Assembly: GCF_040529185.1 (NCBI RefSeq)
Contig: NZ_CP159510.1
Coordinates: forward strand, 3,100,001-3,164,000
Length of the DNA stretch: 64,000 nt
Origin: Sporolactobacillus sp. Y61
Lineage (GTDB): Bacteria > Bacillota > Bacilli > Bacillales > Sporolactobacillaceae
Direction: 5' to 3'
This document shows, in pieces, positions 382-60,151 of the stretch. Numbering within the stretch: position 1 is the first letter of the stretch; every line of letters begins with the position of its first letter. Below the pieces are notes generated by a model. The model worked only from the letters and a program-made list of their open reading frames with translations, did no database searches and was not told where the DNA came from. Made by a program: the position numbers and the translations under genes.

Positions 382-590
382 AAGTGAAACTTCAATAAGC
401 AGGGGGGGTCGACGCACAGGACGTGCCAGTGCAGGTGTTGCGACAGGGCGTTGCGTCTTTAGCCTGTTTCATCCCCACTGGTTGTACGTTCAACCCATCA
501 GGCTGCGCTGCGGGCAGTTATCCCCCACCTGGTCCTGTTCGTTTACCCTTATGACCCTGAGGGGGGTACTGCCCTGCAGGATAAGACACG
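382..590 (+). repeat. dispersed structured repeat, copy 1 (degenerate)
   Basis: This is the first of four related non-coding segments; the others begin at 40219, 58804 and 60010. It starts with AAGTGAAACTTCAATAAGCA and shares later blocks with the others: GTGCAGGTGTTGCGACAGG, AACCCATCAGGCTGC, CCTGTTCGTTTACCCT and TACTGCCC. The outer stem pairing seen in the other copies is weakened here and the 3' hairpin is eroded, so this is the most decayed copy. It lies between the sigma-54 promoter and the activator gene, in the plus orientation like all the others. Confidence 0.7.
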
Positions 591-869
591 AGGCAGAACA
601 AGTTCAATAATTTCACTCAGGTGATTGAAGCATGGTAATATCTGTGTAAGCGTTTTTCGACATTCGTCTGAATGGAAAAACACGATCAATGTTTGATCAA
701 ACGAATGGGATGACATTGAGCAATCGTGCTGCCGGCCTTCAAATAGCCAATGCATTCAATTTCAACTGCAAAGGACAGCCCTTCAGTCCCTCACTCCGCC
801 ACCTGTTTGAGTCACTTAGCTTATCTGGGGGCGAAGGATTGCCTGATGAATGAGGAGGTTCTTCAAACG

Positions 870-2564
870 ATGGATTATTTTTTTCTTGAAAAACTGCAAT
901 CAATTGGTGTATTTACTTTTAACCACCAGCGAAAAGTATGCTTTTACAATCAACTGGCCCAGGACTATCAATCTCAATTCAATCAGATCATGGATTTAAC
1001 ATTTAGCGGCGCCACTTTTTACAGCATCTGTTCAAAACCGGCTGAAGTTCAGATCATTACTGATCAGAATGACTATTTTGCTTTTATCAAACCGGTCGAT
1101 AAACTGGTCCGTCTCATTAGTGAAAAGGAAGAACTTCAAACGATACAGACTGAATTCAACCAATTAATTGATTCGTCGTTCGACGGTATCGTATTTAGCG
1201 ATAATGAAGGAATTATTCTATATCAAAATCCTGCATATGAGAAAATAGCAGGTCTGTCAACCAAATTTTGTGTGGGAAAAAGCCTGAAGACGCTGCAAGA
1301 TGAGGGAATCATCAATGTATCAGCATCGCTGCGCGCACTTGCAGAAAATCGGCCGGTCACCGTCAATCAGAAAATTAACACCGGAGCAAGCGTTTTAGTT
1401 ACTGCAACACCCATTCACGATAAAAATGGATCGATATCAAAAGTTGTTAACAATGTTCGCGATTTAACCTACTTGCAATCTCTGGAAAAAGAAGTGAAGG
1501 ATTTAGAGGCCGAGAAAAAGGTGGTGTATCAGGAATTAGAAGTACTAAAAAGTCAGACTGATACAGAATTATCGATTGTCGCTCACTCTGAGAAAATGCA
1601 GTTTGTCATTGAACGTGCTCTGCGCGTGGCCCAAATCGATTCCATTGTCCTCATACAAGGGGAATCAGGTGTTGGGAAAGAAAAGATCGTGGATTTAATT
1701 CACAAGAAGAGCAGGCGCTCAAATGGTTCTTTGATCAAGGTCAACTGCGGGGCAATTCCTGAGACGTTATTAGAATCTGAACTTTTCGGGTATGAATCAG
1801 GTTCATTCACCGGAGCTCATCACAAAGGCAAACCCGGCTTATTTGAGGCAGCCAACAAAGGAACCATCTTTCTTGATGAAATCGGTGAAATGTCCTTACC
1901 ATTGCAAGTAAAACTGTTAAGGGTCCTCCAGGAATTTGAAATTGTTCGTGTCGGAGGTTCAAAACCGATCTCAATCGATGTCCGTGTGATTGCAGCCACC
2001 AACAAAGACCTGAATAAAATGAGCGAAGAAGGGATGTTCCGGAAAGATCTATACTACCGACTAAACATCATTCCCATCGTCATCCCACCCTTACGTGAAC
2101 GTAAGGAAGATATTGTGCCATTGATTTATCATTTTTTAAAAAGTATCAATTACAAGTATGGATTTCAACGCTCTTTTTCCAAAGATGCCTTAGATAGGCT
2201 GCAAAAATATAAATGGCCGGGTAATGTACGGGAACTTCGGAACCTGGTCGAACGTATGGTTTTAATGAATCACAAATCCCAAATAGATGTTCTGGACATT
2301 CACAATGAAATGACGTTGAACCAGGATAGAAAATTCAGCAGTAAAACCAGCAGTGACTCCATGTTGGCAGATCCAAAACCATTAAAAAAAACAATGGCGG
2401 AGCTTGAATCTCATATCATCCAGGACACCATTAATAAAGCACCCAGTGTTCGAGCAGCAGCTTCAATCCTGCAAATTGATCCCTCTACATTGGTACGAAA
2501 GATGCAGAAATACCATATAAAAAAAGGTAAAAAAACTGATAAATCATCTATTCACTCATTCTGA
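870..2564 (+). CDS. sigma-54-dependent transcriptional activator (PAS, AAA+, Fis-type HTH)
   Basis: A bacterial enhancer-binding protein of about 564 residues. Around residues 100-210 is a PAS sensor domain (SSFDGIVFSDNEGIILYQNP), then a short coiled coil, then the sigma-54 AAA+ domain with Walker A GESGVGKE, the sigma-54 contact loop written GSFTGA, and Walker B GTIFLDEIGEM. The C-terminus has a Fis-type helix-turn-helix (VRAAASILQIDPSTLVRKMQ). I chose ATG 870 because GAGGAGG (852-858) sits 11 bp upstream; ATG 846 and 750 are also in frame, but their extra residues look non-protein-like. It resembles RocR/PrdR-type regulators that sense small molecules. The only sigma-54 promoter seen nearby is the one at 197-214, reading away from this gene, so it probably activates the VOC operon. 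The ligand is unknown. Confidence 0.88.
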   Translation: MDYFFLEKLQSIGVFTFNHQRKVCFYNQLAQDYQSQFNQIMDLTFSGATFYSICSKPAEVQIITDQNDYFAFIKPVDKLVRLISEKEELQTIQTEFNQLIDSSFDGIVFSDNEGIILYQNPAYEKIAGLSTKFCVGKSLKTLQDEGIINVSASLRALAENRPVTVNQKINTGASVLVTATPIHDKNGSISKVVNNVRDLTYLQSLEKEVKDLEAEKKVVYQELEVLKSQTDTELSIVAHSEKMQFVIERALRVAQIDSIVLIQGESGVGKEKIVDLIHKKSRRSNGSLIKVNCGAIPETLLESELFGYESGSFTGAHHKGKPGLFEAANKGTIFLDEIGEMSLPLQVKLLRVLQEFEIVRVGGSKPISIDVRVIAATNKDLNKMSEEGMFRKDLYYRLNIIPIVIPPLRERKEDIVPLIYHFLKSINYKYGFQRSFSKDALDRLQKYKWPGNVRELRNLVERMVLMNHKSQIDVLDIHNEMTLNQDRKFSSKTSSDSMLADPKPLKKTMAELESHIIQDTINKAPSVRAAASILQIDPSTLVRKMQKYHIKKGKKTDKSSIHSF

Positions 2565-2658
2565 AGGAAACTGCCTGATTCTCGGAATATATTTTTCAAT
2601 TATTGACGTTCGAGTCGCAATTCGTCTGGCATTGGAAAAATAATATATATATGTATAC

Positions 2659-2690
2659 CTTTTGCCGCCCTGGCGTAAGGGCGGCAAAAG
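2659..2690. terminator. perfect 12-bp inverted repeat between convergent genes
   Basis: CTTTTGCCGCCC (2659-2670) pairs perfectly with GGGCGGCAAAAG (2679-2690) around an 8-nt loop. It sits between the end of the sigma-54 activator and the end of the minus-strand repair-like operon, so a bidirectional terminator is the natural reading. The outer A/T bases of the stem are the only U-rich part; no separate T-run follows on either strand. Confidence 0.55.
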
Positions 2691-2709
2691 CTGTTACGGC
2701 CTTCTCCAT

Positions 2710-3567
2710 TCACTCATTCAAAAAGAGTAAATGCCTGGCCCTTTTTCGATGAAAATAATTCTGCATCTTCGCCTCATCATCCAAGTCAAGAATAACAAAA
2801 TCTAATCGAATATCCTTAAGCTTCCTGAATGTCTCAAATTCGCTCTTTTTAATGATTCCTTTAATCATGTAATGCTCAATGCCATCAAAGTCTGGTTTCC
2901 CAAATTCAATTAACGCATGAATCATCCTTTGATTTGAACGATGCGTGAACCGATAACGCAGGGGTTTTCGAAGAAGGGATAATGAGCCATATTTATAGGT
3001 CACTTTCTTTTCCACAGCTAATTGACTGGATCTGGCCAATTCATCCTTCAGCTTGTCATACTCAGCTTTTACGGCTTTTAAATGATTTCGATTTTGGCTG
3101 ATTCTTATCGCCGCATCGTTCAGAGTCAAATTCACTTCAGGTGTTGGCTCACTCTTTATCAGTTCCTGCCCCGCTCGATTAAAAGAGGGTTTCACATAAT
3201 ATTCCGGAGTTAAGTGGTACGGTTCAAATAAGTCCAGCAGTTTCTGGTCTTTATTCAAATTGCGACTGGTCAGTATCGTCAGCCTCTGGAGTAATCCAAG
3301 ATTATACAGATACTCATTAAGTCCAGTGTAATCATATTGATAAATTTTTTTAGGAATGAACTTCGCCACTAGATGACTGCCAATCTCGTACCTTCTTGAT
3401 TCACCACTGCTGAGGCAATAGCGCACACGATCTCGAAGTGCCTTCCCTTCCCTTTCAAGTTCTTTTAGCCGTTTATACGAACCGGATGCGACAAAGGCCT
3501 CCATTAATTGCTTTGCATCCCCTCTGTTTGAAGAGAGGGTTTTACTTTTTATATGAGAACAGGACAT
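2710..3567 (-). CDS. protein of unknown function in a DNA-repair-like gene run
   Basis: About 285 residues, not recognised. It is soluble-looking and basic, with no signal peptide or membrane segment. A charged helical stretch around residues 165-190 (HLKAVKAEYDKLKDEL) could be a short coiled coil. The C-terminal third is rich in Arg/Lys/His (RYRFTHRSNQR, YFHRKRARH), which would suit nucleic-acid contact, but that is only inference. ATG 3567 is chosen because AAAGGGGGC lies just upstream; a longer reading frame would overlap the preceding gene. It begins 31 bp after the UvrC-like gene on the same strand and is probably cotranscribed with it. Confidence 0.6.
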   Translation of the reverse strand: MSCSHIKSKTLSSNRGDAKQLMEAFVASGSYKRLKELEREGKALRDRVRYCLSSGESRRYEIGSHLVAKFIPKKIYQYDYTGLNEYLYNLGLLQRLTILTSRNLNKDQKLLDLFEPYHLTPEYYVKPSFNRAGQELIKSEPTPEVNLTLNDAAIRISQNRNHLKAVKAEYDKLKDELARSSQLAVEKKVTYKYGSLSLLRKPLRYRFTHRSNQRMIHALIEFGKPDFDGIEHYMIKGIIKKSEFETFRKLKDIRLDFVILDLDDEAKMQNYFHRKRARHLLFLNE

Positions 3568-3598
3568 AACCCAGATGCCCCCTTTGAACGGACAGTGA

Positions 3599-4693
3599 TC
3601 AGTTCTTAATGCCCGTTGATTCCAATTTCGATAATGACAGCTTATTTTGCAACGCGATGCGTGCATTTTGGCAGGCCATCTGTACAAGATTCTTTTTCGT
3701 GCCCCGTTTGGGATGGATCAAACGGATGCCCAGAAATTCCTGGATCGTTTTATCATCATCCAATTCCGGCATTAAGATTTCTTTTGGCCTGATATGGCGA
3801 TTGCCTAAATAAAATTGTCCCAGATAAGTACGAATACCCGTTTCCGGCTCAGCATACACGGGAAAGAATGAAGCTGCGCGCTGTATTAATTTTCCGCAGC
3901 GAATATGGAAAACCTGCACGCATAGCCAGCTTTTCTGAAAAGCGAAACCGAACACATCGCGATCGACGAAATCCAGGTTATTGATGCTCTGCCTGTCCAT
4001 CGTCGCTTCAATACAAGAGATCAAATCATGGAGATCCCGGGCCTTCTCAAAGTCTAAACGATCCGAGGCCTCCCGCATCTCTTCTTTTAATTTTCGCGCA
4101 ACCGCTCTGAACCCGCCATGGAAAAAATGAACGATTTTACGCGTTACCTGGCGATATTCTTCTTCGCTTACTTCTCTGGCACAACACCCAATGCATCGGC
4201 CAATCTGGTAATAGAGACAGGGGCGCCGCGCGGTAAGCGGGCACCGTCTTAGTGGATAGAGACGGTCCAGCAATGCTTTTGTTTCATTAGCGGCACTTAC
4301 ATTGGGAAAGGGGCCGAAATATTTTCCCTTATCTTTGCTTACCTGTCTAGTAATGATGAGCCTGGGATTGCGCTCATCCGTTATTTTTATATAAGGATAG
4401 CTTTTATCATCTTTCAGCAAAATGTTGTATTTAGGATGATAGTTTTTAATTAAATTATTTTCAAGAATGAGTGCGTCAACATTAGATGCAGTCACGATAA
4501 ACGTAAAATCAGCAATTTGACTCACTAATTTCTCCGTCTTTGGATTATGTTTGCCGATGAAGTAAGAGTGTACGCGTCTCTTTAAGATCTTTGCTTTTCC
4601 AACATAAATGACCGTACCACGATAATCCTTCATCAGATAACAACCGGGCTGTTTCGGAAGCAAGGATAGTTTATCTCGAATCACCTGATTCAT
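3599..4693 (-). CDS. half-length UvrC-like protein (GIY-YIG nuclease plus UVR motif)
   Basis: 364 residues. The N-terminus is a clear UvrC-type GIY-YIG nuclease: LPKQPGCYLMKDYRGTVIYV followed by GKAKILKRRVHSYF. Then come the Cys-rich region (CPLTARRPCLYYQIGRCIGCC) and a UVR/UvrB-binding helix (RLDFEKARDLHDLISCIEA). Full UvrC is about 590 residues; this protein stops just where the second, RNase-H-like 5' nuclease domain and the HhH repeats would begin. It is therefore a paralogue able at most to make the 3' incision, comparable in layout to Cho of enteric bacteria. Start ATG 4693 follows GGAGGTGAAATAG. It lies between a uracil-DNA glycosylase-like gene and an unknown gene, all minus strand, suggesting a small repair operon. 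Confidence 0.82.
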   Translation of the reverse strand: MNQVIRDKLSLLPKQPGCYLMKDYRGTVIYVGKAKILKRRVHSYFIGKHNPKTEKLVSQIADFTFIVTASNVDALILENNLIKNYHPKYNILLKDDKSYPYIKITDERNPRLIITRQVSKDKGKYFGPFPNVSAANETKALLDRLYPLRRCPLTARRPCLYYQIGRCIGCCAREVSEEEYRQVTRKIVHFFHGGFRAVARKLKEEMREASDRLDFEKARDLHDLISCIEATMDRQSINNLDFVDRDVFGFAFQKSWLCVQVFHIRCGKLIQRAASFFPVYAEPETGIRTYLGQFYLGNRHIRPKEILMPELDDDKTIQEFLGIRLIHPKRGTKKNLVQMACQNARIALQNKLSLSKLESTGIKN

Positions 4694-4759
4694 CTATTTC
4701 ACCTCCGCATTTCATCATCTGTCGGTTGAATCAGCACGTATAAGCGGTTCGATCAGGAT

Positions 4760-5341
4760 TTACGATAGAATCCGGTTAATCAATTTCTTCAAATCCGGTA
4801 AGACGCTGTCCTCAAACCAGGGATTTCTTTTTATCCAAATAGTGTTTCGCGGTGACGGATGAACCAATGGAAAATAGTCAGGTAAATAACGGCGATAATC
4901 TTTAACAATTTCAGTTAATGTCATTTTTGAATGCGTCTTCAGGTAGTACTTTTGTGCGTAGGAGCCGACTAATAAAGTTAACTCGATGTCCGGCATCGCC
5001 CTGATGATTGGATCATGCCACTTTGCCGCGAATCCCTTCCTCGGCGGCAAATCGCTACTCTTCCCTTTGCCGGGAAAATAAAAATCCATCGGAAGCACGG
5101 CAATTTTCCCCGAATGATAGAAAGTATCGTCTGATACACCCATCCATTCCCGTAACCGCACGCCGCTTCGATCATTCCATATTATCTTTGTATTCTGCGC
5201 GATCTCACCCGGAGCCTGCCCGATGATTAACAGCTTTGCTGTTGGGGCGGCATAGTAGAGCGGATCGATGTTTCTATTTGTGAAACGAATATTTTCAGGA
5301 TCTGCTTTTATTTGATTAAAAAGATCTTTTAACACGTCCAT
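4760..5341 (-). CDS. uracil-DNA glycosylase superfamily protein
   Basis: About 193 residues. Two UDG-fold signatures are visible: motif 1 as LLIIGQAPGEIAQ near residue 40 and the substrate-loop motif as PLVHPSPRNT near residue 165. These would excise uracil or a related damaged base from DNA, leaving an abasic site. The exact UDG subfamily cannot be told from these motifs. ATG 5341 is preferred because AGGAGGT sits 7 bp upstream; an ATG at 5374 lacks a site. It is the first gene of the three-gene minus-strand run with the UvrC-like protein. Confidence 0.75.
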   Translation of the reverse strand: MDVLKDLFNQIKADPENIRFTNRNIDPLYYAAPTAKLLIIGQAPGEIAQNTKIIWNDRSGVRLREWMGVSDDTFYHSGKIAVLPMDFYFPGKGKSSDLPPRKGFAAKWHDPIIRAMPDIELTLLVGSYAQKYYLKTHSKMTLTEIVKDYRRYLPDYFPLVHPSPRNTIWIKRNPWFEDSVLPDLKKLINRILS

Positions 5342-5463
5342 CTTCGTTACCTCCTGAATCTGGTTCATTGGCAAAAATAAAAGAGCCGGTCAGTGATCCA
5401 TCCTGCACCCTGTGCGCATCAGCACGGCGAATGTTTCGGGCGCAGCCCCGGAACGGATCCTGA

Positions 5464-6812: not shown

Positions 6813-6815
6813 CCA

Positions 6816-7061: not shown

Positions 7062-7186
7062 CGATAACGACTCTCCTTTCTGATTCAGCAGGCAGGAGCA
7101 GGCATGTGCAAGTCGGGCAGTCCCCTTTTCACACCTTTTTTCACCACGATCTTTATATCAGGCACTTAATCCTGTACGCTGATGAT

Positions 7187-10775: not shown

Positions 10776-10798
10776 AGCCTGGCGGACCGGAGCATAGG

Positions 10799-30081: not shown

Positions 30082-30163
30082 TACCGGCGGTGGGGGTCGA
30101 ACCCACACTCCTTACGGAACACGATTTTGAGTCGTGCGCGTCTGCCTATTCCGCCACGCCGGC
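30082..30163 (-). tRNA. tRNA-Leu (CAA)
   Basis: Cloverleaf with long variable arm; anticodon loop ACTCAAAAT on the minus strand. CCA is not encoded. Last tRNA of the operon. Confidence 0.93.
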
Positions 30164-30186
30164 AAATAAAAATAAACATAAAAAAA

Positions 30187-30259
30187 TGGAGGCGACACCG
30201 GAATCGAACCGGGGCTAAGGGTTTTGCAGACCCGTGCCTTACCGCTTGGCTATGCCGCC
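30187..30259 (-). tRNA. tRNA-Cys (GCA)
   Basis: Acceptor GGCGGCA pairs with TGTCGCC; anticodon loop CTGCAAA. CCA is encoded. Confidence 0.93.
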
Positions 30260-30273
30260 ATCATAAATAAAAT

Positions 30274-30348
30274 TGGAGCGGAAGACGGGATTCGAACCCG
30301 CGACCCCCACCATGGCAAGGTGATGTTCTACCACTGAACTACTTCCGC
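30274..30348 (-). tRNA. tRNA-Gly (GCC)
   Basis: Acceptor GCGGAAG pairs with CTTCCGC; anticodon loop TTGCCAT. CCA is encoded. Confidence 0.93.
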
Positions 30349-30355
30349 ATTACTA

Positions 30356-30427
30356 CTGGCCCAGCTGGATTCGAACCAGCGCATGACGGCACCAAAAACC
30401 GTTGCCTTACCGCTTGGCTATGGGCCA
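30356..30427 (-). tRNA. tRNA-Gln (TTG)
   Basis: Acceptor TGGCCCA pairs with TGGGCCA; anticodon loop TTTTGGT. CCA is not encoded. Confidence 0.92.
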
Positions 30428-30434
30428 ACAACAG

Positions 30435-30509
30435 GGCGGTTAGTGGGGATCGAACCCACGCGTGCCGGAACCACAATCCGGTGTGTTAAACCGCTTCACC
30501 ATAACCGCC
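30435..30509 (-). tRNA. tRNA-His (GTG)
   Basis: Extra 5' G opposite C73, as expected for His; anticodon loop TTGTGGT. Confidence 0.92.
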
Positions 30510-30517
30510 ATAATAAG

Positions 30518-30588
30518 CAGGGGTAGTAGGAATCGAACCCACACTAGAGGTTTTGGAGACCTCTGTTCTGCCTTTAAACTATACCCCT
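30518..30588 (-). tRNA. tRNA-Trp (CCA)
   Basis: Acceptor AGGGGTA pairs with TACCCCT; anticodon loop CTCCAAA. Confidence 0.93.
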
Positions 30589-30598
30589 ATATGTAAGA

Positions 30599-30680
30599 TG
30601 GAGGGAGAAGGATTCGAACCTTCGAACCCGTAGGGAGCGGATTTACAGTCCGCCGCGTTTAGCCACTTCGCTATCCCTCC
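30599..30680 (-). tRNA. tRNA-Tyr (GTA)
   Basis: Acceptor GGAGGGA pairs with TCCCTCC; long variable arm; anticodon loop CTGTAAA. Confidence 0.93.
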
Positions 30681-30697
30681 ATGAATATATATATAAA

Positions 30698-30773
<76 letters not shown>

Positions 30774-30782
30774 ATACCGTAA

Positions 30783-30858
<76 letters not shown>

Positions 30859-30927
30859 GTAATATAAAGCAGTTTGTTTGATAAATCAAATTCTGAACAA
30901 ACACACTGATATGAATAATAAAACGAA

Positions 30928-31000
30928 CGGGTCCGAGCGGATTTGAACCGCCGATCTCCTGCGTGACAGGCAGGCATGTTAACCACTACACCACGGACCC
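30928..31000 (-). tRNA. tRNA-Asp (GTC)
   Basis: Acceptor GGGTCCG pairs with CGGACCC; anticodon loop CTGTCAC. Confidence 0.94.
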
Positions 31001-31007
31001 ATATGTA

Positions 31008-31080
<73 letters not shown>

Positions 31081-31105
31081 ATAATTTGATAAAAATATCA
31101 GTAAA

Positions 31106-31181
31106 TGGTGGAGGATATAGGGTTCGAACCTATGACCCTCTGCTTGTAAGGCAGACGCTCTCCCAGCTGAGCTAATCCTCC
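31106..31181 (-). tRNA. tRNA-Val (TAC)
   Basis: Acceptor GGAGGAT pairs with ATCCTCC; anticodon loop CTTACAA; CCA encoded. Confidence 0.94.
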
Positions 31182-31258
31182 ATAAAGAAAGAAAATGCTT
31201 TCTCTCTTAAAAACACCACTATATTTTATTATATGGTGAGTAAAAAATCAAGATAATA

Positions 31259-31333
31259 TGGTGACCCGTGCGGGATTCGAACCCACGAACCCACCGTGAA
31301 AGGGTGGTGTCTTAACCACTTGACGAACGGGCC
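31259..31333 (-). tRNA. tRNA-Glu (TTC)
   Basis: Acceptor GGCCCGT pairs with ACGGGTC; anticodon loop CTTTCAC; CCA encoded. Confidence 0.93.
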
Positions 31334-31338
31334 ATAAA

Positions 31339-31430
31339 TGGCGGAGAGCGAGGGATTCGAACCCTCGAGACGGCCTTAACCGTCTACACGATTTCCAATC
31401 GTGCTCCTTCAGCCTCTCGGACAGCTCTCC
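31339..31430 (-). tRNA. tRNA-Ser (GGA)
   Basis: Acceptor GGAGAGC pairs with GCTCTCC; long variable arm; anticodon loop TTGGAAA; CCA encoded. First tRNA after 5S. Confidence 0.93.
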
Positions 31431-31436
31431 AAAAGG

Positions 31437-31504
31437 CTTCATGACAGAGCCCGTGTCTGCTCCGCCCGTTTTTCGGCTGATAGCCGGATACTCTGTTTAT
31501 GAAG
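31437..31504 (-). other. long-stem hairpin between 5S rRNA and tRNA-Ser
   Basis: CTTCAT-g-ACAGAG (31437-31449) pairs with CTCTGT-tt-ATGAAG (31491-31504). Its place in the precursor suggests a processing stem, for example for RNase III. Confidence 0.45.
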
Positions 31505-31534
31505 CACAGTATTCATTTCAATATCAAAGATATT

Positions 31535-31651
31535 GCCTGGCAGTGACCTACTCTCACAGGGGGGCAACCCCCCACTACCATCGGCACAGAAGAGCTTAAC
31601 GACCGTGTTCGGGATGGGAACGGGTGTGACCTCTTCGCTATGACCGCCAGA
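31535..31651 (-). rRNA. rrf: 5S rRNA
   Basis: About 117 nt. The ends pair (TCTGGCGG...CTGCCAGGC) and the core GTGTTCGGGATGGGAACGGG region on the plus strand is the standard 5S loop. Ends are placed to within a few bases. Confidence 0.93.
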
Positions 31652-31740
31652 CTGAAAATCACCCGGGCCAGACGACCCCTCAAAACCGGTAACGAAAGAT
31701 ACAGCACGTCTTTTTTTTCTTTTGTCCACTGACTTTGGGT

Positions 31741-34665
<2,925 letters not shown>

Positions 34666-34795
34666 ACCGACACAATCATTGATCATGTCCTGGACAAAAT
34701 GGAATTCTTGACGTGTTTTCTGTATCTTTCGTTATCCAGTTTTCAAGGATCGTTATACCCTGGTCAGGTGATAGATAAAATACCTGATTGATATA

Positions 34796-34871
34796 TGGTG
34801 GAGCCTGGGAGGATCGAACTCCCGACCTCCTGCGTGCAAAGCAGGCGCTCTCCCAGCTGAGCTAAGGCCCC
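34796..34871 (-). tRNA. tRNA-Ala (TGC)
   Basis: In the 16S-23S spacer. Acceptor GGGGCCT pairs with AGGCTCC; anticodon loop TTTGCAC; CCA encoded. Confidence 0.94.
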
Positions 34872-34872
34872 A

Positions 34873-34949
34873 TGGTGGGCCTGAGTGGACTTGAACCACC
34901 GACCTCACGCTTATCAGGCGTGCGCTCTTACCAGCTGAGCTACAGGCCC
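34873..34949 (-). tRNA. tRNA-Ile (GAT)
   Basis: In the 16S-23S spacer, one base from tRNA-Ala. Acceptor GGGCCTG; anticodon loop CTGATAA; CCA encoded. Confidence 0.94.
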
Positions 34950-35030
34950 ACACCAAAAGGGTTCACTATACTGAAGGAATGATTCCTTCAAAACCAAACA
35001 AAAGCGCAAACGTTTCGCTATCGATCGTTT

Positions 35031-36586
<1,556 letters not shown>

Positions 36587-36741
36587 AAAGTATTGCTTCT
36601 TCCAGATCCCTTTCGGCATCCGGGTCAGACTTTTTTCGTTCATCAGATCCATAGCAAATTGAATTGATCAGGGGATAAACCCCTCAAATCACGCTTGGCT
36701 TTTGTTCAGTTTTCAAGGAACATTCAAACAGCAACTCTAAT

Positions 36742-40153: not shown

Positions 40154-40218
40154 CGAGACCGGTCTGACTCTTGTTAAAATCATCCATTTGGCGGATACTG
40201 GATATGCCTGCTCAGATA

Positions 40219-40411
40219 AAGTGAAACGTCGGTCAGCGGAGGGTTTTCGGACGCAGAATGTGCCCGTGCAGGTGCTGCGACAGCGCCATCGCTTTTAGCC
40301 CGCGTCATCCTCTGCTGATTGTCAGTTGAACCCATCCGGCTGCTGCGCGCCTCAGCCTGCTCGTTTACCCTCATGTCCTGAAGCAGGGTCTTACTGCCCG
40401 TTCATGCGGGA
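40219..40411 (+). repeat. dispersed structured repeat, copy 2
   Basis: Begins AAGTGAAACGTCGGTCAGCG and ends TTACTGCCCGTTCATGCGGG. The outer stem TCAGCGGAGG pairs with CCTCTGCTGA, and CCCTCATG near the 3' end pairs with CATGCGGG. It lies between the NUDIX gene and gsaB, about 40 bp upstream of gsaB. Confidence 0.85.
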
Positions 40412-40453
40412 AAAAGAAGTAAAGAAGTAAAGAAACTAAGGGGAGATTTTTTC

Positions 40454-41746
40454 ATGAACATCAGCACTTCAGAAAAACTTTATCAGGAAGCACTGGAACA
40501 TATCGTCGGAGGAGTCAACAGTCCTTCCCGCGCGTATGCAGCGGTTGGCGGAGGCGCTCCGGTTTTTATGAAGAAAGGAAAAGGCGCCTATTTCTGGGAT
40601 GAAGACGGCAACCGGTATATCGATTACCTGGCGGCTTACGGGCCGATTATTACCGGTTTTGCCCACCCGCACATTACGGAAGCCATTAAGAGGCAGGCTG
40701 AACTCGGCGTTCTGTACGGGACGCCGACTAAGCTGGAAACCGAACTTGCGGTCATGCTGGAAAAAGCCATTCCTTCGATGGATAAAGTACGCTTCACCAA
40801 TTCCGGTACCGAGGCGGTTATGACGACGGTACGTGTCGCCCGTGCGTATACAGGAAGAAAGAAAATCTTAAAATTTGCCGGGAGCTATCATGGCCACTTT
40901 GACCTGGTACTTGTTGCCGCCGGTTCCGGACCTTCCACACTTGGATCCCCGGATTCAGCCGGTGTGACGGAAAGTACGGCACATGAAGTGATCACAGTTC
41001 CCTATAACAACGTCGACACCCTGCAGCAGGCTTTTGATAAATGGGGCGATGATATCGCCGGCGTTCTTGTTGAGCCGATTGTGGGCAACTTCGGTATGGT
41101 AATGCCAAAACCGGGATTTCTTGAAGCGATTAATAAAATTGCACACCAGGCGGGAGCGATTGTCATCTACGACGAAGTCATCACCGGATTTCGGTTTATG
41201 TACGGTGGTGCTCAGAATTATCTCGGCGTGATTCCCGACCTGACAGCGATGGGCAAAATCATCGGCGGCGGTCTGCCGATTGGTGCTTACGGCGGACCAA
41301 AGAAAATCATGGATGAAGTCGCACCGCTCGGCCCGGCATATCAGGCCGGTACGATGGCCGGTAACCCGCTTTCCATGGCGAGCGGCATCGCCTGCCTCGA
41401 AGTTCTTCAGAAGCCCGGCGTCTACGAAGAAATGGACAGACTCGGTCATAAGCTGGAAGAAGGCATCCTGTCACTGAACGTGAAATATCATCTGCCGATT
41501 GCAATCAATCGAATTGGCGGATCGATGACCCTGTATTTTTCCGATCATCCAGTGACAAACTATGAAGAAGCGAAAAAAACAGATACGGAAATGTTCGGCC
41601 GCTTCTTTAAACTGATGCTGTCCAAAGGTGTAAACCTGGCGCCATCAAAATATGAAGCCTGGTTCCTGACGACTGAACATACAGAAGCAGATATTGATGA
41701 GACACTTGATGCTGTTGATTATGCTTTTTCAGAACTTGCAAAATAA
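40454..41746 (+). CDS. gsaB: glutamate-1-semialdehyde 2,1-aminomutase
   Basis: 430 residues, the normal length. Class III PLP aminotransferase fold with [20 protein letters not shown] (phosphate-binding) and the PLP lysine in [18 protein letters not shown] near residue 268. It converts glutamate-1-semialdehyde to 5-aminolevulinate, the haem precursor. Spore formers often have two copies (hemL and gsaB); the location between ygaE-like and bcp/perR genes points to the second copy. AAGGGGAG precedes ATG 40454. A terminator follows. Confidence 0.93.
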
Positions 41747-51814: not shown

Positions 51815-51903
51815 ATCGATCCCCCTAAGTCGTCCTTCTCTTAGGGTGACCATCTCTTATCGGATTATGTCTGTTCGGATAGAAACTTCAATCCGTGGGG
51901 AGC

Positions 51904-52116
51904 TTACTGTCCGTTAAAGCGGGATAAATCTTCTTTCCAGTCGTCACGGAACCGGCGGATTCTGATTTCAAATTCATCCATCATATGAAGTAATTGATCA
52001 AGATCTTCCGGCTGCGTGCTCCCAGCTTCGAATGCCTGAACCATATAAGAAATTAATTGAATCCGATTCTTCATGTAACTGATTTGCGCATCCTTTGAAT
52101 GTGTTGCTCTTCCCAT
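51904..52116 (-). CDS. small YfjT/SE1561-like protein
   Basis: 70 residues, helical and charged: HSKDAQISYMKNRIQLISYM, then a second helix (LDQLLHMMDEFEIRIRRF). I believe it is the SE1561/YfjT family, as B. subtilis yfjT lies next to pdaA (yfjS), but the similarity is from memory. Function unknown. GGAGG lies about 10 bp before ATG 52116. Confidence 0.6.
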   Translation of the reverse strand: MGRATHSKDAQISYMKNRIQLISYMVQAFEAGSTQPEDLDQLLHMMDEFEIRIRRFRDDWKEDLSRFNGQ

Positions 52117-52137
52117 TTCTATTCCTCCGGTAAAAAT

Positions 52138-53313: not shown

Positions 53314-53511
53314 AATCCATCACTTCCACTTCAATAATTTAGAGATAACCTGCTGCTTTTGATTCATCCTGCAAGAAACAGGAAGCATCAGCTTATATTT
53401 GACCCCGTTGTTTATTTTCAACAGTGTGAAAAAAACATATAATAGAGCTACGGTTTCTTTTATTGTCGGAGAAAAAAAGCGTTTTGTAAAGACGTGAAAG
53501 GGGGATCTGAA

Positions 53512-54288: not shown

Positions 54289-54409
54289 CGGTTTTGAAAC
54301 GAAAGTATGTCAACTACTGTCGAAGAACAGTTGAGCAAATAACCAATACCACCGCTTTGCATACAATAAAAGGGCAATCCATCAACTATTGAGGAATGGA
54401 GAATGCCCG

Positions 54410-54853
54410 ATGAAGAAAAATCTGAAGTTGCCCGATCTGAGTCAGGCTACGCACTGGATCAATCAAAGACCCGATCAAAAGGCCCTGTCCGGCCGGCCGT
54501 TGCTTGTTTATTTCTGGTCTCTTGGCTGCGTCTACTGCAAAAAGGTCATACCTCAGATCCATGAATTACGAGAACGGTGCCGCGATCAGCTGAACATCAT
54601 CGCCATTCATATGCCGTTATCTGAATCTGAACTGGATCCGGAACAGGTAGCCCGGAGCTGTATGATGCATGAAATGAAGTGCCCCGTTCTGATTGATAAC
54701 CGGCACCGTCTGGCAGATGCATTCGGCAACCGCCATGTCCCCACCTGTTATCTCTTCGACAGACGCGGACAACTGCTGGAATACCATATGGGGGAACTCG
54801 GAGTCAGGCGCGCCTTGAAAGCGGCAGAACAACTCGTCTATTCTTTGGAATAG
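54410..54853 (+). CDS. TlpA/ResA-like thioredoxin-fold protein, cytoplasmic
   Basis: 147 residues. A redox motif CVYC is in LLVYFWSLGCVYCKKVIPQI near residue 46, and the cis-Pro is in RHVPTCYLFDRRGQ. No signal peptide or membrane helix is seen, unlike ResA or StoA, so it should act in the cytoplasm. The partner is unknown. ATG 54410 follows TGGAG with 9 bp. Its end overlaps the end of the convergent VanZ-family gene by 16 bp. Confidence 0.8.
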   Translation: MKKNLKLPDLSQATHWINQRPDQKALSGRPLLVYFWSLGCVYCKKVIPQIHELRERCRDQLNIIAIHMPLSESELDPEQVARSCMMHEMKCPVLIDNRHRLADAFGNRHVPTCYLFDRRGQLLEYHMGELGVRRALKAAEQLVYSLE

Positions 54854-55284
54854 AATATGATGAAATGGCGACGGACAAACAGGAGAAAGCTGAAGATCAT
54901 GCGGCCAATAACTGCACCGGTAATATTCAGCCACATATCATCAATATCAAAAATGCGGGAGGCAAACAGATACTGCGAGGACTCGATAAACAGACTGAAC
55001 AGAAAGGCAGACAGAATGAGCAGCGGATACCTCCCCGCCGGTTTTGACAAGATTGGAAGCAGGAGACCAAACGGGAGAAACAGCAGCATATTTCCGATGA
55101 CATTTTTAAAAATCAGGGCCAGACTCCCACTCCTTATCATCAGAGCAAGGCTGCTGAAAATCTTCAGGTTTTCTGATCTTCCATAGGTGTAGTAGTTGTG
55201 GGTGAAAAGGGTCAGTAGGAGCACAACAGAAAGGTAACTGAGAAAGAAAAACATAAGAAGATATTTTTTCTGAAAGAGGTTCAT
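54838..55284 (-). CDS. VanZ-family membrane protein
   Basis: 148 residues with four membrane helices. The VanZ core is seen: LIFKNVIGNMLLFLPFGLLL, then FSLFIESSQYLFASRIFDID and DDMWLNITGAVIGRMI, with conserved N, E, Q and D residues. Some members give low-level teicoplanin resistance, but most have unknown roles. ATG 55284 has GGGAGGG about 9 bp upstream; a longer frame has none. It overlaps the tlpA-like gene tail to tail. Confidence 0.85.
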   Translation of the reverse strand: MNLFQKKYLLMFFFLSYLSVVLLLTLFTHNYYTYGRSENLKIFSSLALMIRSGSLALIFKNVIGNMLLFLPFGLLLPILSKPAGRYPLLILSAFLFSLFIESSQYLFASRIFDIDDMWLNITGAVIGRMIFSFLLFVRRHFIIFYSKE

Positions 55285-55345
55285 CAGCTTTTCCCTCCCT
55301 TTTGCATAGGTATGATCTGTTGCGGACAAACATGCCCGCCGGCAG

Positions 55346-56230
55346 TTATCCTGTGTGCGTCCGCCCTTTTCCTATATGAAGCTGATAACAGAGCGCATTG
55401 ATCTGACCACCGATAATAATCGTAAATGCAGTCAGATAAAACCAGAGCATCAGAATGATGATCCCGCCAAGGGTCCCGTATGTAGAGGTATAATTGCCCA
55501 GATACCGGACATAAAAGGAGAACGCGTAAGAGGCGAGCTGCCACCCGGCGCCGGCTATCACTGCCCCGATAATCACTTCGCCCGGCTTCAGCCTGATATT
55601 CGGAGCGAGCATAAACAGAAAATCAAAGATCATAATGATCACCACAAACGTGACCAGTGTGCTGATAACAGACCACATTCCGGCAAAGCTTTCGGAAAAG
55701 CCGAGATATCTGAACAGAGAGCGCATCCACGCTGCAGCAATAACGTTGACAGCAAGCGTCATCGCAATCGCAAAAATCATGGCCAGTGTAAAACACATGG
55801 CAAGAAAGCGGGTCAGAATAAAGGGCCTTGTTTCTTTGACATGATACGCCCGGTTCAGCGTCCGTATCAAGGCATTGATGGCGCCTGAAGCCGGCCAGAT
55901 GGTCGCAATCACGCCGAGAGAGAGCAGACCCCCGCTTTTTGTAAAGACGCCGTTCAGGTTCTGCTCAATTAAGGACATGACCTCCCCCGGCAGGTAACGT
56001 TCAAGAAATGGAATGATCTCCGCCTGCGTCAGGCCGAGATAAGGGAGGATCGCAAAAAGAAAAATCACCAGCGGAAAAAGCGACAACAGGAAATAAAACG
56101 CTAATGTTGCCGCCAGATCCACCGTATGATCTTCAATAAATCTTTTTGTGAGAAGTTTAATGAACAAACGGACTTCCTTAAACTCCTTTTCTCTTTTCAC
56201 TTTCTCCATCTCCGCGTCTTTCCTTTTCAT
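55346..56230 (-). CDS. YihY/BrkB-family membrane protein (YfkH-like)
   Basis: 294 residues with six membrane helices: LAATLAFYFLLSLFPLVIFL, then GGLLSLGVIATIWPASGAIN and WLYLTAF-type end (LMLWFYLTAFTIIIGGQINA). The family was once called RNase BN in error and has no settled function. The start may be ATG 56230 or 56209. It follows the YtxH-like gene by about 20 bp and is likely in one operon with it. Confidence 0.85.
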   Translation of the reverse strand: MKRKDAEMEKVKREKEFKEVRLFIKLLTKRFIEDHTVDLAATLAFYFLLSLFPLVIFLFAILPYLGLTQAEIIPFLERYLPGEVMSLIEQNLNGVFTKSGGLLSLGVIATIWPASGAINALIRTLNRAYHVKETRPFILTRFLAMCFTLAMIFAIAMTLAVNVIAAAWMRSLFRYLGFSESFAGMWSVISTLVTFVVIIMIFDFLFMLAPNIRLKPGEVIIGAVIAGAGWQLASYAFSFYVRYLGNYTSTYGTLGGIIILMLWFYLTAFTIIIGGQINALCYQLHIGKGRTHTG

Positions 56231-56249
56231 TTCCGGACAATGACCGAAG

Positions 56250-56765
56250 TCAGGCGTCGTCCGAACCTTCAGGCTTATATCCGGATGGCATGGATTTCAG
56301 CGGCATCGTACCGGGATTCGGTACAGTGGTTTCATTTTCAAGACGCTGCAAAGCCTCTTCTTCAGGACTAATCAGAGACGGTTCCTGATAGTTCGCCACA
56401 CTCTGCCCGGCGCGTCTTATTTTTCCTGCTATTTCCGTCAGCTCGCTGCCTGCTTCCATGACATACTGATACGTATTTCCCGTACTTTTCCTGGCCTTCT
56501 CCGCGTTGTCGATCATCTGCTGGACGTCTTCCGATATTTCACGTGCCAGACCTTTCAGCCGGGATCCCGTCGCCGTAAAATAATTTCCGACCTGATCGGG
56601 ATGCCTCCAGACCGTCTGAATCACTCTTCCGCTGTTCTTTGCAGCGGTCTGCAGCCGGTTTCCCCATACCGACCGTGTCTCCCGTCCGAAGAGTGACAGT
56701 CCGCAGCCGATCATTCCCCCGATCAGCATAAACCTGCCCATCCGGCTCCTGCCGTATATGCTCAT
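56250..56765 (-). CDS. YtxH-like membrane-associated protein
   Basis: 171 residues. A short glycine-rich hydrophobic segment (MGRFMLIGGMIGCGLSLFG) near the N-terminus, then a helical region with coiled-coil features, and a disordered Pro-rich tail. Similar in layout to YtxH-type proteins, of unknown role. GGGGAG lies 9 bp before ATG 56765. First gene of the pair with the BrkB-family protein. Confidence 0.6.
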   Translation of the reverse strand: MSIYGRSRMGRFMLIGGMIGCGLSLFGRETRSVWGNRLQTAAKNSGRVIQTVWRHPDQVGNYFTATGSRLKGLAREISEDVQQMIDNAEKARKSTGNTYQYVMEAGSELTEIAGKIRRAGQSVANYQEPSLISPEEEALQRLENETTVPNPGTMPLKSMPSGYKPEGSDDA

Positions 56766-57016
56766 CAGAATCAGCTCCCCTGCGATAAGCTATAACCCAT
56801 CAAGGATTACGCTTTTTAGTGTGCACCGGAGGCCGTTTAATATGAGAATCCAGGGTCTGTTAAAAAGTGGAGAAACTCCGTAATAGAAAACCGGACAGCT
56901 TATCACTGCACTCATCATAACAGAAACGGTATAAAAAAACATAAACTCAAGTGTCGTTCGGTCTTGCAAGACGGGTATGCTAAAATGAGGCAAGGATACA
57001 GAAAGAAGGGACACTG

Positions 57017-58804
57017 TTGGCAAAACTGAATCAGAAGTGGGATCTTGATCCCGTTTTTAAAGGGGGAAGCGCGTCCCCGGCATTTTCCGGCTTTCTTAAG
57101 CAACTGCAGGAAGACCTCAGACATTTCAAGTCTGTCCTTCAGCACAGAGTTCAGGTAACTGCAGCTGATGCCGACGCCTTTCAGACCATCATGAAACAAT
57201 ACGGTGAGCTCGCAGGGCGACTGCGTGAAGCGGCTGCATTCACGGAATGCCTGACTTCTCAGAATGTCAAAGATGAGAAAGCGCTGGCGCTGAGCAGCCG
57301 GGTGCAGCGCCTTATCGCTTTATTTGAAGCCTGCGACACGCAGACCGATGCACTCCTGCGCCGGATTGACGATAAGGACTGGCAGAGACTTGTTGAAAAC
57401 CTGGGCGACATCCGTTTTGCCCTTGAGGAGAAAAGAAGTCTTTCCAGAAAAAAGCTACCTGCTGAGCAGGAAGAACTGATCAGCAGCCTGTCGGTTGACG
57501 GTTATCATGCATGGGGACAGCTGTATTATGCCCTCGTCGGGAAAATAAAGATCCCGCTGGCGCATCCTGCAGGTGGAAAAGAGACCCTCTCCGTCAGCCA
57601 GGCCAGTAATCTGCTTGATGATCCGGATCGCACCGTACGACAGCAGGTCTTTCATGCGCTGGAGAATTCCTGGTCGGAAAACGCCGACCTTTTTGCTGCA
57701 ACCCTGAATCATCTCTCCGGGTACCGCCTGTCCGTCTACGAAGCACGCGGCTGGTCAGACTTTCTCGCTGAACCTCTGGCTTTTAACCGGATGACGCGCC
57801 GTACACTGGACACGATGTGGCAAACGGTCACGGAATATAAACCGAAATTTGTCAGGTTTCTCGAAAGAAAGGCGAAACTGCTCGGACTGGACCGACTCTC
57901 ATGGTTTGACGTTCATGCCCCGCTCACCCGGGATACAAAAAAGGTATCCTATGAGGATGCAGCCGGTTTTATCGTTAAGCATTTTCGGACATTCAATCCG
58001 AAGATGGCCGATTTTGCAAAACACGCCCTGGAAAATCGCTGGATTGAAGCGGAAAACCGCCCTGATAAACGACCGGGCGGATTTTGTACCAGTTTTCCTC
58101 TGACCGGCGAATCGCGTATTTTCATGACATTCAGCGGCACTGCCTCAAATACGTCGACTATTGCCCATGAACTTGGCCATGCCTACCACCAGTCAGTGAT
58201 GCAGGGTATTCCTTTCCTTTCGCAGCAATACGCGATGAATGTCGCAGAAACGGCATCAACTTTTTCGGAAATGATCGTCAGCGATGCTGCTGAATCGGCC
58301 GCAAAATCTAAAGAGGAAAAGCTGACTTTTCTCAGCACCAAACTGGAACGCAGTATTGATTTACTGATGAATATCCATGCCCGTTTCCTGTTTGAAACGC
58401 GGTTTTATGCCGAGCGGAAAAAAGGGGCGGTTCCGGTTGACCGGCTTAATCAGCTGATGGAAAGCGCAGAGAAGGAGGCCTATCTGAATTCGCTGGACGT
58501 TTATCATCCGGCGTTCTGGGCATCCAAGCTGCATTTTTATATTACGGACTGGCCCTTCTACAATTTCCCGTACACATTCGGGTTCCTGTTCAGTACCGGT
58601 ATTTATGTCCAGGCGCTTAAGGGAGGAAAATCTTTTGCGGCTAAATACGATGCACTTCTCCGCGATACAGGACGTATGACAACCGAACAGCTGGCTGAGA
58701 AACATCTGGGCGTCGTTCTGAGTGCACCGGACTTCTGGCGTTCCGCACTAGACTATCTGGCGCAGGACGTAGATAAGTTCCTGGCGCTCACAGACTCACC
58801 GTGA
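57017..58804 (+). CDS. pepF: M3-family oligoendopeptidase F
   Basis: 595 residues, full length for PepF. The zinc site is in STIAHELGHAYHQSVMQGIP (HExxH), and the third ligand Glu in AETASTFSEMIVSDA. It cleaves short peptides in the cytoplasm. TTG 57017 follows AGAAGGGAC with good spacing. Its stop coincides with the start of repeat copy 3. It appears to be a single-gene unit. Confidence 0.93.
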   Translation: MAKLNQKWDLDPVFKGGSASPAFSGFLKQLQEDLRHFKSVLQHRVQVTAADADAFQTIMKQYGELAGRLREAAAFTECLTSQNVKDEKALALSSRVQRLIALFEACDTQTDALLRRIDDKDWQRLVENLGDIRFALEEKRSLSRKKLPAEQEELISSLSVDGYHAWGQLYYALVGKIKIPLAHPAGGKETLSVSQASNLLDDPDRTVRQQVFHALENSWSENADLFAATLNHLSGYRLSVYEARGWSDFLAEPLAFNRMTRRTLDTMWQTVTEYKPKFVRFLERKAKLLGLDRLSWFDVHAPLTRDTKKVSYEDAAGFIVKHFRTFNPKMADFAKHALENRWIEAENRPDKRPGGFCTSFPLTGESRIFMTFSGTASNTSTIAHELGHAYHQSVMQGIPFLSQQYAMNVAETASTFSEMIVSDAAESAAKSKEEKLTFLSTKLERSIDLLMNIHARFLFETRFYAERKKGAVPVDRLNQLMESAEKEAYLNSLDVYHPAFWASKLHFYITDWPFYNFPYTFGFLFSTGIYVQALKGGKSFAAKYDALLRDTGRMTTEQLAEKHLGVVLSAPDFWRSALDYLAQDVDKFLALTDSP

Positions 58805-59016
58805 AGTGAAGCTTGAATCAGCGGGAGTTTTTCGGACGCGCAGGACGTGCCGTGCAGGCGTCGCGACAGGAGGTTCTTATTTTTAGCCTGCGCGCATCTC
58901 CCACTGAATGTCAGTTGAAACCCATCGGGCGGCTGCGGACCGTTACCTCCACCTGAGTATTATCATTTACCCGCATGACCCTGTGGTGGGGGTCTTACTG
59001 CCCGTTCATGCGGGAT
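58804..59016 (+). repeat. dispersed structured repeat, copy 3
   Basis: AAGTGAAGCTTGAATCAGCG at the start; the blocks GGACGTGCCGTGCAGGCG, TTTTTAGCCTGCG, CAGTTGAAACCCATCGGGC and TTACTGCCCGTTCATGCGGG follow. Outer stem TCAGCGGGAG pairs with CTCCCACTGA, and CCCGCATGA pairs perfectly with TCATGCGGG at the 3' end. It begins at the last bases of pepF. Confidence 0.88.
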
Positions 59017-59125
59017 TTTCCATACGATTTGAAGTGAAATGGAATCATTTTTCTATAGACAAAAATTCTCTTTCCGAATACAATAGGAGTGGAAAATTAA
59101 ATTATAATTGTTTTAATCAACAAAT

Positions 59126-59155
59126 CATGCTGTCATCCAAACGGGTGGCAGCATG
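59126..59155 (+). other. 13-bp hairpin and tiny ORF in the leader of the VIT1/CCC1 gene
   Basis: CATGCTGTCATCC (59126-59138) pairs with GGGTGGCAGCATG (59143-59155), two G-U pairs, loop AAAC. It is followed by a weak T-run, then AAGAGG and an 8-codon frame (MKMIPILN, 59174-59200). It could be an attenuator for the metal transporter gene. A weak Fur-like match (TGATTCCCATTCTCA, 59179-59193) overlaps the tiny frame. Confidence 0.4.
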
Positions 59156-59250
59156 TTCCGTTTTAAGAGGTATGAAGATGATTCCCATTCTCAATTAAAA
59201 TGAAAATTTTTCATTCTTACAGGTATTTATCAGGAAAAGAGGACAAAACC

Positions 59251-59928
59251 ATGAACGAACAGGCTGGAACCATGAATCAAAAACTGAACGTCCTTCGCGC
59301 CGGTGTTCTCGGAGCAAATGACGGGATTGTCTCAACTGCAGGACTGGTTGTCGGTGTGGCCGGGGCGACAGGAAATACGATGACTTTACTGATATCCGGT
59401 CTCGCCGGGCTGGTTGCCGGCGCGCTTTCCATGGCCGGCGGTGAGTATGTGTCTGTCAGCACACAGAAGGATACGGAAAAAGCAGTTGTGGAGGCAGAAA
59501 AGGTCAGATTAAAAGAAGATTATGAAGGTGAAGTGAATGAACTGACAGACATCTATGTGGCCAATGGCTTATCGGAACAACTATCCAGACAGGTCGCCCT
59601 GGAACTGATGAACAAGGATGCCATTGGGGCCCATGCGGCCGCGGAGCTGGGCGTCAGGCCGGGCGAATACGTGAATCCATGGCATGCCGCCTTCTCCTCC
59701 ATGTTCGCCTTTTCTATCGGAGCGATTCTTCCCCTGCTGATGATTGTCCTGATGCCGCCGCCGGTCAGAGTGCTGTTTACTGTGATTGCCGTTCTGATCT
59801 CACTTGCTTTAACCGGTTATATCAGTGCCCATCTCGGCGGTGCGCCAAAATGGCCGGCTGTCCTGCGCAATGTGGTTGTCGGTGCCCTGACCATGGGATT
59901 AACCTTCACGGTCGGCACGCTTCTATAA
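59251..59928 (+). CDS. VIT1/CCC1-family iron/manganese transporter
   Basis: 225 residues with five membrane helices. Helix 1 has the family motif RAGVLGANDGIVSTAGLVVG, helix 2 has LAGLVAGALSMAGGEYVSVS with the metal-binding Met/Gly/Glu residues, and a cytoplasmic metal-binding helical loop follows (residues 70-140, rich in Glu). These proteins move Fe2+ or Mn2+ out of the cytoplasm in exchange for H+. ATG 59251 is 8 bp after AAAAGAGG. It sits between repeat copies 3 and 4. Confidence 0.9.
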   Translation: MNEQAGTMNQKLNVLRAGVLGANDGIVSTAGLVVGVAGATGNTMTLLISGLAGLVAGALSMAGGEYVSVSTQKDTEKAVVEAEKVRLKEDYEGEVNELTDIYVANGLSEQLSRQVALELMNKDAIGAHAAAELGVRPGEYVNPWHAAFSSMFAFSIGAILPLLMIVLMPPPVRVLFTVIAVLISLALTGYISAHLGGAPKWPAVLRNVVVGALTMGLTFTVGTLL

Positions 59929-60009
59929 GAAAGGCACTCAGGCTGAGCAAGTCGCCGGCATCACAGAGGTCTGGTTTACCCAGGCCTTTTTCCGTAAAAA
60001 ATTTTTTAT

Positions 60010-60151
60010 GAAGTGAAACGTCAATCAGTGGGGGCTTGATTCCCCACTGATTTTTAGTTGTACCCATCGGGCTGCTGCGGGAAGTGATCCCCGCCCGGGC
60101 CTGTTCGTTTGCCCTCATCACCCTGGGGCGATGCTGCCGTTCATGGGGAAT
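60010..60151 (+). repeat. dispersed structured repeat, copy 4 (short form)
   Basis: AAGTGAAACGTCAATCAGTG at the start. Here TCAGTGGGG pairs perfectly with CCCCACTGA around a loop of only 8 nt; the longer copies carry about 70 nt inside this stem. The later blocks (CCCATCGGGCTGCTGCGGG, CCTGTTCGTTTGCCCTCATC, CCGTTCATGGGG) are kept. It lies between the metal transporter and adenine deaminase genes. Confidence 0.87.

Follow-up and report, generated by a model that had tools for sequence, protein, structure and literature searches.

The window, a 64,000-nucleotide stretch of the Sporolactobacillus sp. Y61 genome, contains four segments that an earlier note had described as sharing one layout, with stems that mostly stay paired. 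Both observations are borne out: the segments are members of a dispersed family of small, gene-free DNA elements, and a covariance model (R1) refines their coordinates. Copy 1 (379..585, plus strand; R1 E 3.5e-20, outside the R1 training set) is a long form that carries an additional module and is decayed at the right, where the CGTTCATGCGGG end is missing. Copy 2 (40216..40415, plus strand, 200 bp; R1 E 3.0e-22, in the training set) has an enlarged loop in its first hairpin, P1, with no module match at E<=0.1, and lies upstream of a hemL-like gene (NCBIfam; 40454-41746). Copy 3 (58801..59019, plus strand; R1 E 5.6e-26, in the training set) is another long form. The TGA stop (58802-58804) of an M3-family oligoendopeptidase ORF (57017-58804) falls within its first bases, so that the intergenic placement noted earlier holds within the window with this one qualification. 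The P1 arms of copy 3, read directly, lie at 58816..58827 and 58898..58909 of the plus strand, the helix being counted on other copies; those of the second hairpin, P2, lie on the same strand at 58935..58954 and 58985..59005, with approximate ends, likewise read directly and counted in a class-wide alignment. Pairing is broken by one A-C mismatch within the stem of copy 3 quoted in the earlier note. Copy 4 (60008..60154, plus strand; R1 E 1.3e-28, in the training set) is a short form without the module, retains its 3' ATAAA and terminates in CGTTCATGGGGA. A fifth copy, a 54-bp remnant at 51875..51928 of the plus strand (R1 E 9e-4), has undergone an internal deletion that keeps both end regions and an intact 3' ATAAA.

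A profile built from 24 copies in genomes of other families recovers all four copies, with best stretches at E 1.3e-8 to 1.5e-17. It matches copy 4 at 60008-60094 (E 6.6e-16) and the fifth copy at 51895-51928 (E 1.7e-4) and 51881-51904 (E 0.031), while no match at E<=0.05 arose in 20 windows after shuffling in 6-base blocks. The element itself was not matched as such when the window was scanned against Rfam.

When intact, the unit spans about 157 bp and reads ATAAA-GTGAAACTTC-[hairpin P1]-GTTAGTTGAACCAATCGGGC-[long hairpin P2]-TTAATGCGGG-ATAAA; intact short forms mostly measure 154-160 bp. The hairpins lie about 10 nt in from either end, and the termini, GTGAAACTTC and CCCGCATTAA compared by eye, are not inverted repeats. 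R1 was built from 28 copies of this genome, namely the 33 with both ends minus three that were dropped (2910157, 2719271 and 1884612) and two near-duplicate tandem copies (1822020 and 1935603). It finds 83 matches in the genome, four of them antisense shadows. Site analysis retained 72, leaving out the shadows and seven weak matches (E>=2e-7) that include the window remnant. All copies in the window are on the plus strand, as had been remarked; genome-wide the strands are shared (35 plus, 37 minus), and with the origin assumed near coordinate 1 there is no replication-strand bias (34 leading-like, 38 lagging-like). The copies of this genome are decayed: of the 72, 48 retain an exact ATAAA at the 5' end and 38 at the 3' end, and 27 do so at both. 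Those in the window are likewise old and decayed.

Both P1 and P2 show covariation over 14 genera. Both sides have changed in 23 of the 37 pairs, against a mean of 9.2 after shuffling, and none of 500 shuffles reaches 23. RNAalifold on the copies of this genome recovers P1 alone; P2 was identified by eye on class-wide copies.

The flanks of the element point to a fixed target. Among young copies fetched from one genome, ATAAA stands at the start in 20/20 and at the end in 19/20. Five occupied sites of one genome were checked in a congener: two are empty, each with a single ATAAA, two show intervals measuring 273 and 189 bp, and one is unclear. One insertion interrupts an open frame that is uninterrupted at the congener's empty site. 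Neighbouring copies in tandem share one ATAAA, their overlap being its 5 bp, and array size varies within the species at four loci. In the two genomes of the window's species, all seven tested sites are occupied in both, one of them in partly deleted form, which gives no sign of a recent jump in this species. Taken together, copy number, covariation, insertion precisely at ATAAA and the modular composites make it very probable that the family is a mobile element that is small (~157 bp), non-coding and non-autonomous and that targets ATAAA (read as TTTAT on the complementary strand). The suggestion of a mobile, structured, gene-free element is thereby upheld by the many further copies, the covarying stems and the two empty sites. 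Insertion beside a pre-existing ATAAA would yield a copy with ATAAA on both flanks, and the use of an older copy's ATAAA as target would presumably build up a head-to-tail array sharing one ATAAA.

The roughly 70 nt absent from copy 4 belong to a genuine presence/absence arm. The P1 loop holds the reverse complement of the Bacillaceae-1 RNA (RF01690) in 17/72 copies of this genome. Copy 1 has the module in its P1 loop at 413..477 on the minus strand (cmscan 36.9 bits, gathering score 35; module profile E 3.2e-8), the only match to RF01690 above the gathering threshold in the window. A weak Bacillaceae-1-like match occupies 58839..58888 of the plus strand in the P1 loop of copy 3 (module profile, element positions 39-88, E 0.0078). 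In another genus the module stands between P1 and P2 in the 13 copies read. The hairpin module is a passenger in some lineages, lodged within the P1 loop in this genome and between P1 and P2 elsewhere; it matches the Rfam family on the reverse strand, and differs from it in being a mere passenger in the element. Within this bacterial family RF01690 is itself a high-copy repeat (counts per genome are at least those found, the best 129 having been scored, a number reached by one genome). In the text seen of the literature naming RF01690, it is not called mobile.

The element is patchily spread over many Bacillota families. It is present in 32/299 sampled genomes of the class and 14/398 of the phylum, with per-genome counts of at least those found (best 9 and best 7 per genome, respectively). 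R1 matches occur in 7/26 genomes of the family, where counts are again lower bounds, the best 114 candidates having been scored (a number one genome reached), and in 0/13 other genomes of the window's genus. No phage matched the element, and none of five exact strings taken from it turned up in the literature searched.

Non-autonomous elements derived from IS200/IS605, and REP/RAYT systems, have subterminal hairpins, no inverted termini and a fixed short target. The present element resembles them in its hairpins near both ends, its lack of inverted termini and its fixed short target, seen as one ATAAA at the two empty sites. It probably moves in an IS200/IS605-like manner, through folded single-stranded DNA. 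A trans-supplied enzyme would recognise the folded strand and cut at ATAAA; we put at about even the chance that such an enzyme acts and is, as the leading candidate, an HUH Y1 (IS200/IS605/RAYT-like) transposase. Y1-type enzymes are found in about half of the element-bearing genomes: a RAYT-like Y1 protein occurs in 15/32 of these against 21/267 without the element, phylogeny ignored (both surveys cover 299 genomes, taken as the same set from the genomes shown in both), and 11 of the 15 sharing genomes belong to one family. The window's own genome has no RAYT-like match at E<=1e-15, and the ends of its intact IS200/IS605, considered as an autonomous partner, do not match by eye. An element lies near 1/20 RAYT-like loci, 19 of the 20 being in element-bearing genomes, and near 2/14 Y1 loci in the family, one about 2 kb off and the other an IS200-type locus. 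There is therefore no REP/RAYT layout, the other 19 RAYT-like loci setting the element apart from that system. P2 is also far longer than REP palindromes, given as 20-40 bp (PMC3733652). Among the loci looked at, which were no systematic sample, none held an autonomous element with such ends. A less probable rival concerns the enzyme and leaves mobility untouched: a tyrosine or serine recombinase would insert a circular intermediate bearing a single ATAAA at an ATAAA in the chromosome, in the manner of integron cassettes, the hairpins forming a folded recombination site. Such recombination predicts the same end product, with ATAAA direct repeats, a shared ATAAA in arrays and a single ATAAA at empty sites; against it, no recombinase was linked to the element in searches aimed at Y1 enzymes.

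The earlier note had left a choice between movement in trans and action as an RNA; mobility has held up, and a need for RNA function has not. Retention of the element for an RNA function, be it as a 3'-UTR stability or terminator element or as a CsrA-binding RNA, with spread as a by-product, appears decidedly improbable. The covarying stems would suit it, yet wobble asymmetry is weak (plus strand, GU 45 vs AC 29, p 0.08; P1 of this genome, GU 25 vs AC 11, p 0.03), in keeping with stems that act at the DNA level, and copy 3 folds no better than its shuffles (z -0.54, 53/200 equally good). Orientation to genes is near even, the element sharing the strand of the upstream gene in 40/72 cases and of the downstream gene in 37/71. 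That 12/72 copies begin inside the stop codon of the ORF called upstream also speaks for an RNA, but can be put down to the TAA inside ATAAA and the TGA inside GTGA. The reverse complement of Bacillaceae-1 is reported to match CsrA-binding motifs (PMC4333381), and CsrA is present in 26/26 family genomes; these, however, include 19 without R1 matches, and the long copies of this genome carry two CAGG(A/G)(C/T)G motifs in 9/22 cases, one in 12/22 and none in 1/22. More improbable still is a decayed protein gene or a classical MITE with a DDE transposase, terminal inverted repeats and variable target duplication. The element is small, mostly intergenic and non-coding like many MITEs, among which bcr1 has been placed (PMC3733652). 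Both readings are contradicted by the fixed ATAAA of the young copies and the termini lacking inverted repeats, and the covarying stems argue against them as well.

The nearest published relative appears to be bcr1 (Bacillus cereus repeat group A), a likeness drawn from descriptions. It is a structured repeat of 147 to 167 bp (PMC2267715), a range that takes in most intact short forms of the present element, and copies of bcr1 are often located in UTRs or between the genes of operons (PMC3446304). Dozens of copies are described, along with a TTTAT motif associated with mobility (PMC6542083), which recalls the TTTAT (ATAAA) repeats at the element ends. By contrast, bcr1 is described as confined to the B. 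cereus group (PMC6542083), whereas the present element occurs in many Bacillota families. A distant blastn search with plasmids carrying two element copies gave, among the matches listed, one Bacillus record, 21 bases in Bacillus arachidis at E 2. The BOX elements of Streptococcus pneumoniae, short intergenic repeats of modular composition, are similar in both respects, by description only.

A wider and rather unlikely extension of the mobile-element reading would see phylum-wide, self-folding, ATAAA-specific cassettes, moved by an undescribed enzyme, that carry an exchangeable RNA module: Bacillaceae-1 GGA-loop hairpins would have been captured at two places and spread, seeding putative CsrA-type sites beside many genes. 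The Rfam Bacillaceae-1 'sRNA' appears in a new light, as a high-copy repeat and a passenger captured at two positions, and both it and the element are candidates for masking by annotators. With no genes of its own, an exact target of five bases and hairpins that covary, the element is a clean system in which to learn how enzyme-less elements move.

The four segments grouped by the earlier note under a common layout (model coordinates 379-585, 40216-40415, 58801-59019 and 60008-60154) indeed share it on direct reading. Copy 3 alone has 46 blastn matches in the genome, and the covariance model search proposed at that stage extends the set: the model R1, built from 28 copies of this genome with the variable arm taken out (copies 2-4 included, copy 1 left out), yields 83 matches at E<=0.01, four of which are antisense shadows of other copies. 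A weak R1 match at 51875-51928 marks a 54-bp remnant. All four copies and the remnant are also recovered by a profile of 24 copies from genomes outside the family. Run on 20 windows that had been shuffled by blocks of six bases, this profile has no match at E<=0.05. On its minus strand, the window also carries an rRNA operon with a large cluster of tRNAs (30082-36587). The placement of all four copies on the plus strand is true of the window but is a local accident, as 35 of 72 sites genome-wide are on that strand. By simple ORF calling, the upstream ORF runs in the direction of the element at 40/72 sites and the downstream ORF at 37/71. At 12/72 sites the stop of the upstream ORF falls among the element's first bases, because of the TAA within ATAAA and the TGA within GTGA.

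The intact consensus consists of ATAAA, GTGAAACTTC, hairpin P1, GTTAGTTGAACCAATCGGGC(TTTTA), the long hairpin P2, whose tip varies, TTAATGCGGG and ATAAA. The compensating stems described earlier are borne out on a class-wide alignment of 28 copies (24 genomes in 14 genera, plus one plasmid): 92.8% of P1/P2 cells are paired against a shuffled mean of 84.5, 23 of 37 pairs are changed on both sides against 9.2, and the covariation score is 0.270 against 0.129, with none of 500 shuffles reaching any of these values. They also far exceed those of slid versions of the structure, over which P1/P2, drawn after inspection of the aligned sequences, hold an advantage. Among wobble cells, which are not independent, GU exceeds AC weakly both in this alignment (45 versus 29, p 0.08) and in P1 of the own genome (25 versus 11, p 0.03), so neither strand stands out as that of an RNA. 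In one own copy (2719236-2719392) the P2 interior is seemingly inverted between the P2 arms, and the models match both strands there. In the second genome of the species, the counterpart of copy 3 retains the module but has lost most of the P2 hairpin; element copies can thus decay via hairpin deletion.

The element moves to ATAAA. In the family genome G024, the 20 copies fetched from among the best-scoring look closely similar to one another, and ATAAA is found at the start of 20 and at the end of 19. The copies of the own genome are older; ATAAA is present at the start of 48/72, at the end of 38/72 and at both ends of 27/72. Five G024 sites were compared with its congener, G023. Two of them are empty there, with a straight alignment across (L179 versus L201, L182 versus L199), and both have one ATAAA in G023 against ATAAA-element-ATAAA in G024. 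These sites confirm the mobility suspected from the window, and the search for target-site duplications reveals a fixed ATAAA at both sides of the element and a single one where it is absent. The L179 copy interrupts an open reading frame, presumably for a protein of the pyridoxamine-oxidase type; joining its flanks at a single ATAAA restores continuous reading, and the frame is uninterrupted in L201. Two of the other three sites have intervals of 273 bp and 189 bp in G023, and one is unclear. In the second genome of the species, 131-207 bp occupy the element position at six of seven own-genome sites tested and 75 bp at one. Tandem copy number differs between the two genomes of the species at four loci, the tandem units sharing exactly ATAAA as overlap. 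At 1620927, where the second genome has two copies, the one own copy looks like a hybrid between them, which is consistent with recombination inside an array.

Fixed direct repeats, the lack of inverted termini and hairpins near both ends fit an HUH enzyme (IS200/IS605/RAYT), which would transpose the folded strand of the element; we give this route to ATAAA an even chance. The same features fit nearly as well a recombinase acting on a circle, a possible but less likely mover, and other routes take up the remaining probability. RAYT-like proteins occur in 15/32 element-bearing genomes against 21/267 others (Fisher p 1.2e-7, phylogeny ignored), with 11 of the 15 from one family. The element is found at 1/20 RAYT-like loci, and no RAYT-like protein was found in the own genome at the cut-off of the genome survey.

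Within the family, R1 matches at E<=0.001 occur in 7/26 genomes, numbering 79 in the own genome, 74 in the same species and 89, 97, at least 114 (G024), 9 and 1 in the others; 0/13 other genomes of the genus have such matches. The element is present in 32/299 genomes (17/118 genera) of the class sample and 14/398 of the phylum sample. Five phylum-level copies that were read all keep a P1-like hairpin followed by GTTAGTT, and four have ATAAA near the right end. A plasmid of Pseudalkalibacillus hwajinpoensis bears two full copies, and shorter or decayed ones are found on plasmids of Peribacillus (three records), Niallia and Klebsiella grimontii. The last (L261, 3001-3092), though short, is clearly related and has ATAAA at each end (R1 E 6.6e-8); it may represent transfer, a mosaic or a contaminated assembly. 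Phages gave zero matches. No published report of the element was found in the open-licence literature by exact strings or related descriptions. The bcr1 repeat of the B. cereus group is of the same size class and has a TTTAT motif, a likeness by description (PMC2267715, PMC6542083), and is termed MITE-like (PMC3446304, PMC3733652).

The variable arm proposed by the earlier note is real in its presence and absence, and is a separate repeat. Besides rRNA and tRNA, the single Rfam match in the window at gathering thresholds is to RF01690 (Bacillaceae-1); it falls within copy 1, on the minus strand (413-477). A module resembling it is found in 17/72 own copies (profile E<=0.1), 22/72 exceeding 175 bp, and lies between core positions ~30 and ~38, in the P1 loop. 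Two long G023 copies have a weak module match there (E 0.0013, 0.0038). In the family genome G006, 12 of 58 RF01690 matches, mostly best-scoring, were read together with L073; the right part of the element follows the module in 13/13 and the left part precedes it in 12/13 (L243 has no detected left part), placing the module between core positions ~58 and ~62, in the P1-P2 linker. RF01690 is present in 22/26 family genomes, with at least 129 matches in one. Three other G023 copies lie outside the element, and all three tested in G003 and G013, two genomes without any R1 match, are free of it. RF01690 copies at contig ends in several genomes stand beside sequence that is rRNA-operon-like by eye (L078, L081, L082, L083), and free-standing copies at L260 and L257 adjoin further partial copies in an array-like manner. 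Weinberg et al. (PMC2864571) list RF01690 as an RNA, and its reverse complement is reported to resemble CsrA-binding motifs (PMC4333381). The two CAGG(A/G)(C/T)G motifs are kept in just 9/22 long own copies, and CsrA, present in 26/26 family genomes, does not discriminate by its presence. The two placements of the module, together with its free-standing copies, identify the variable arm as a separate repeat captured by the element at two positions.
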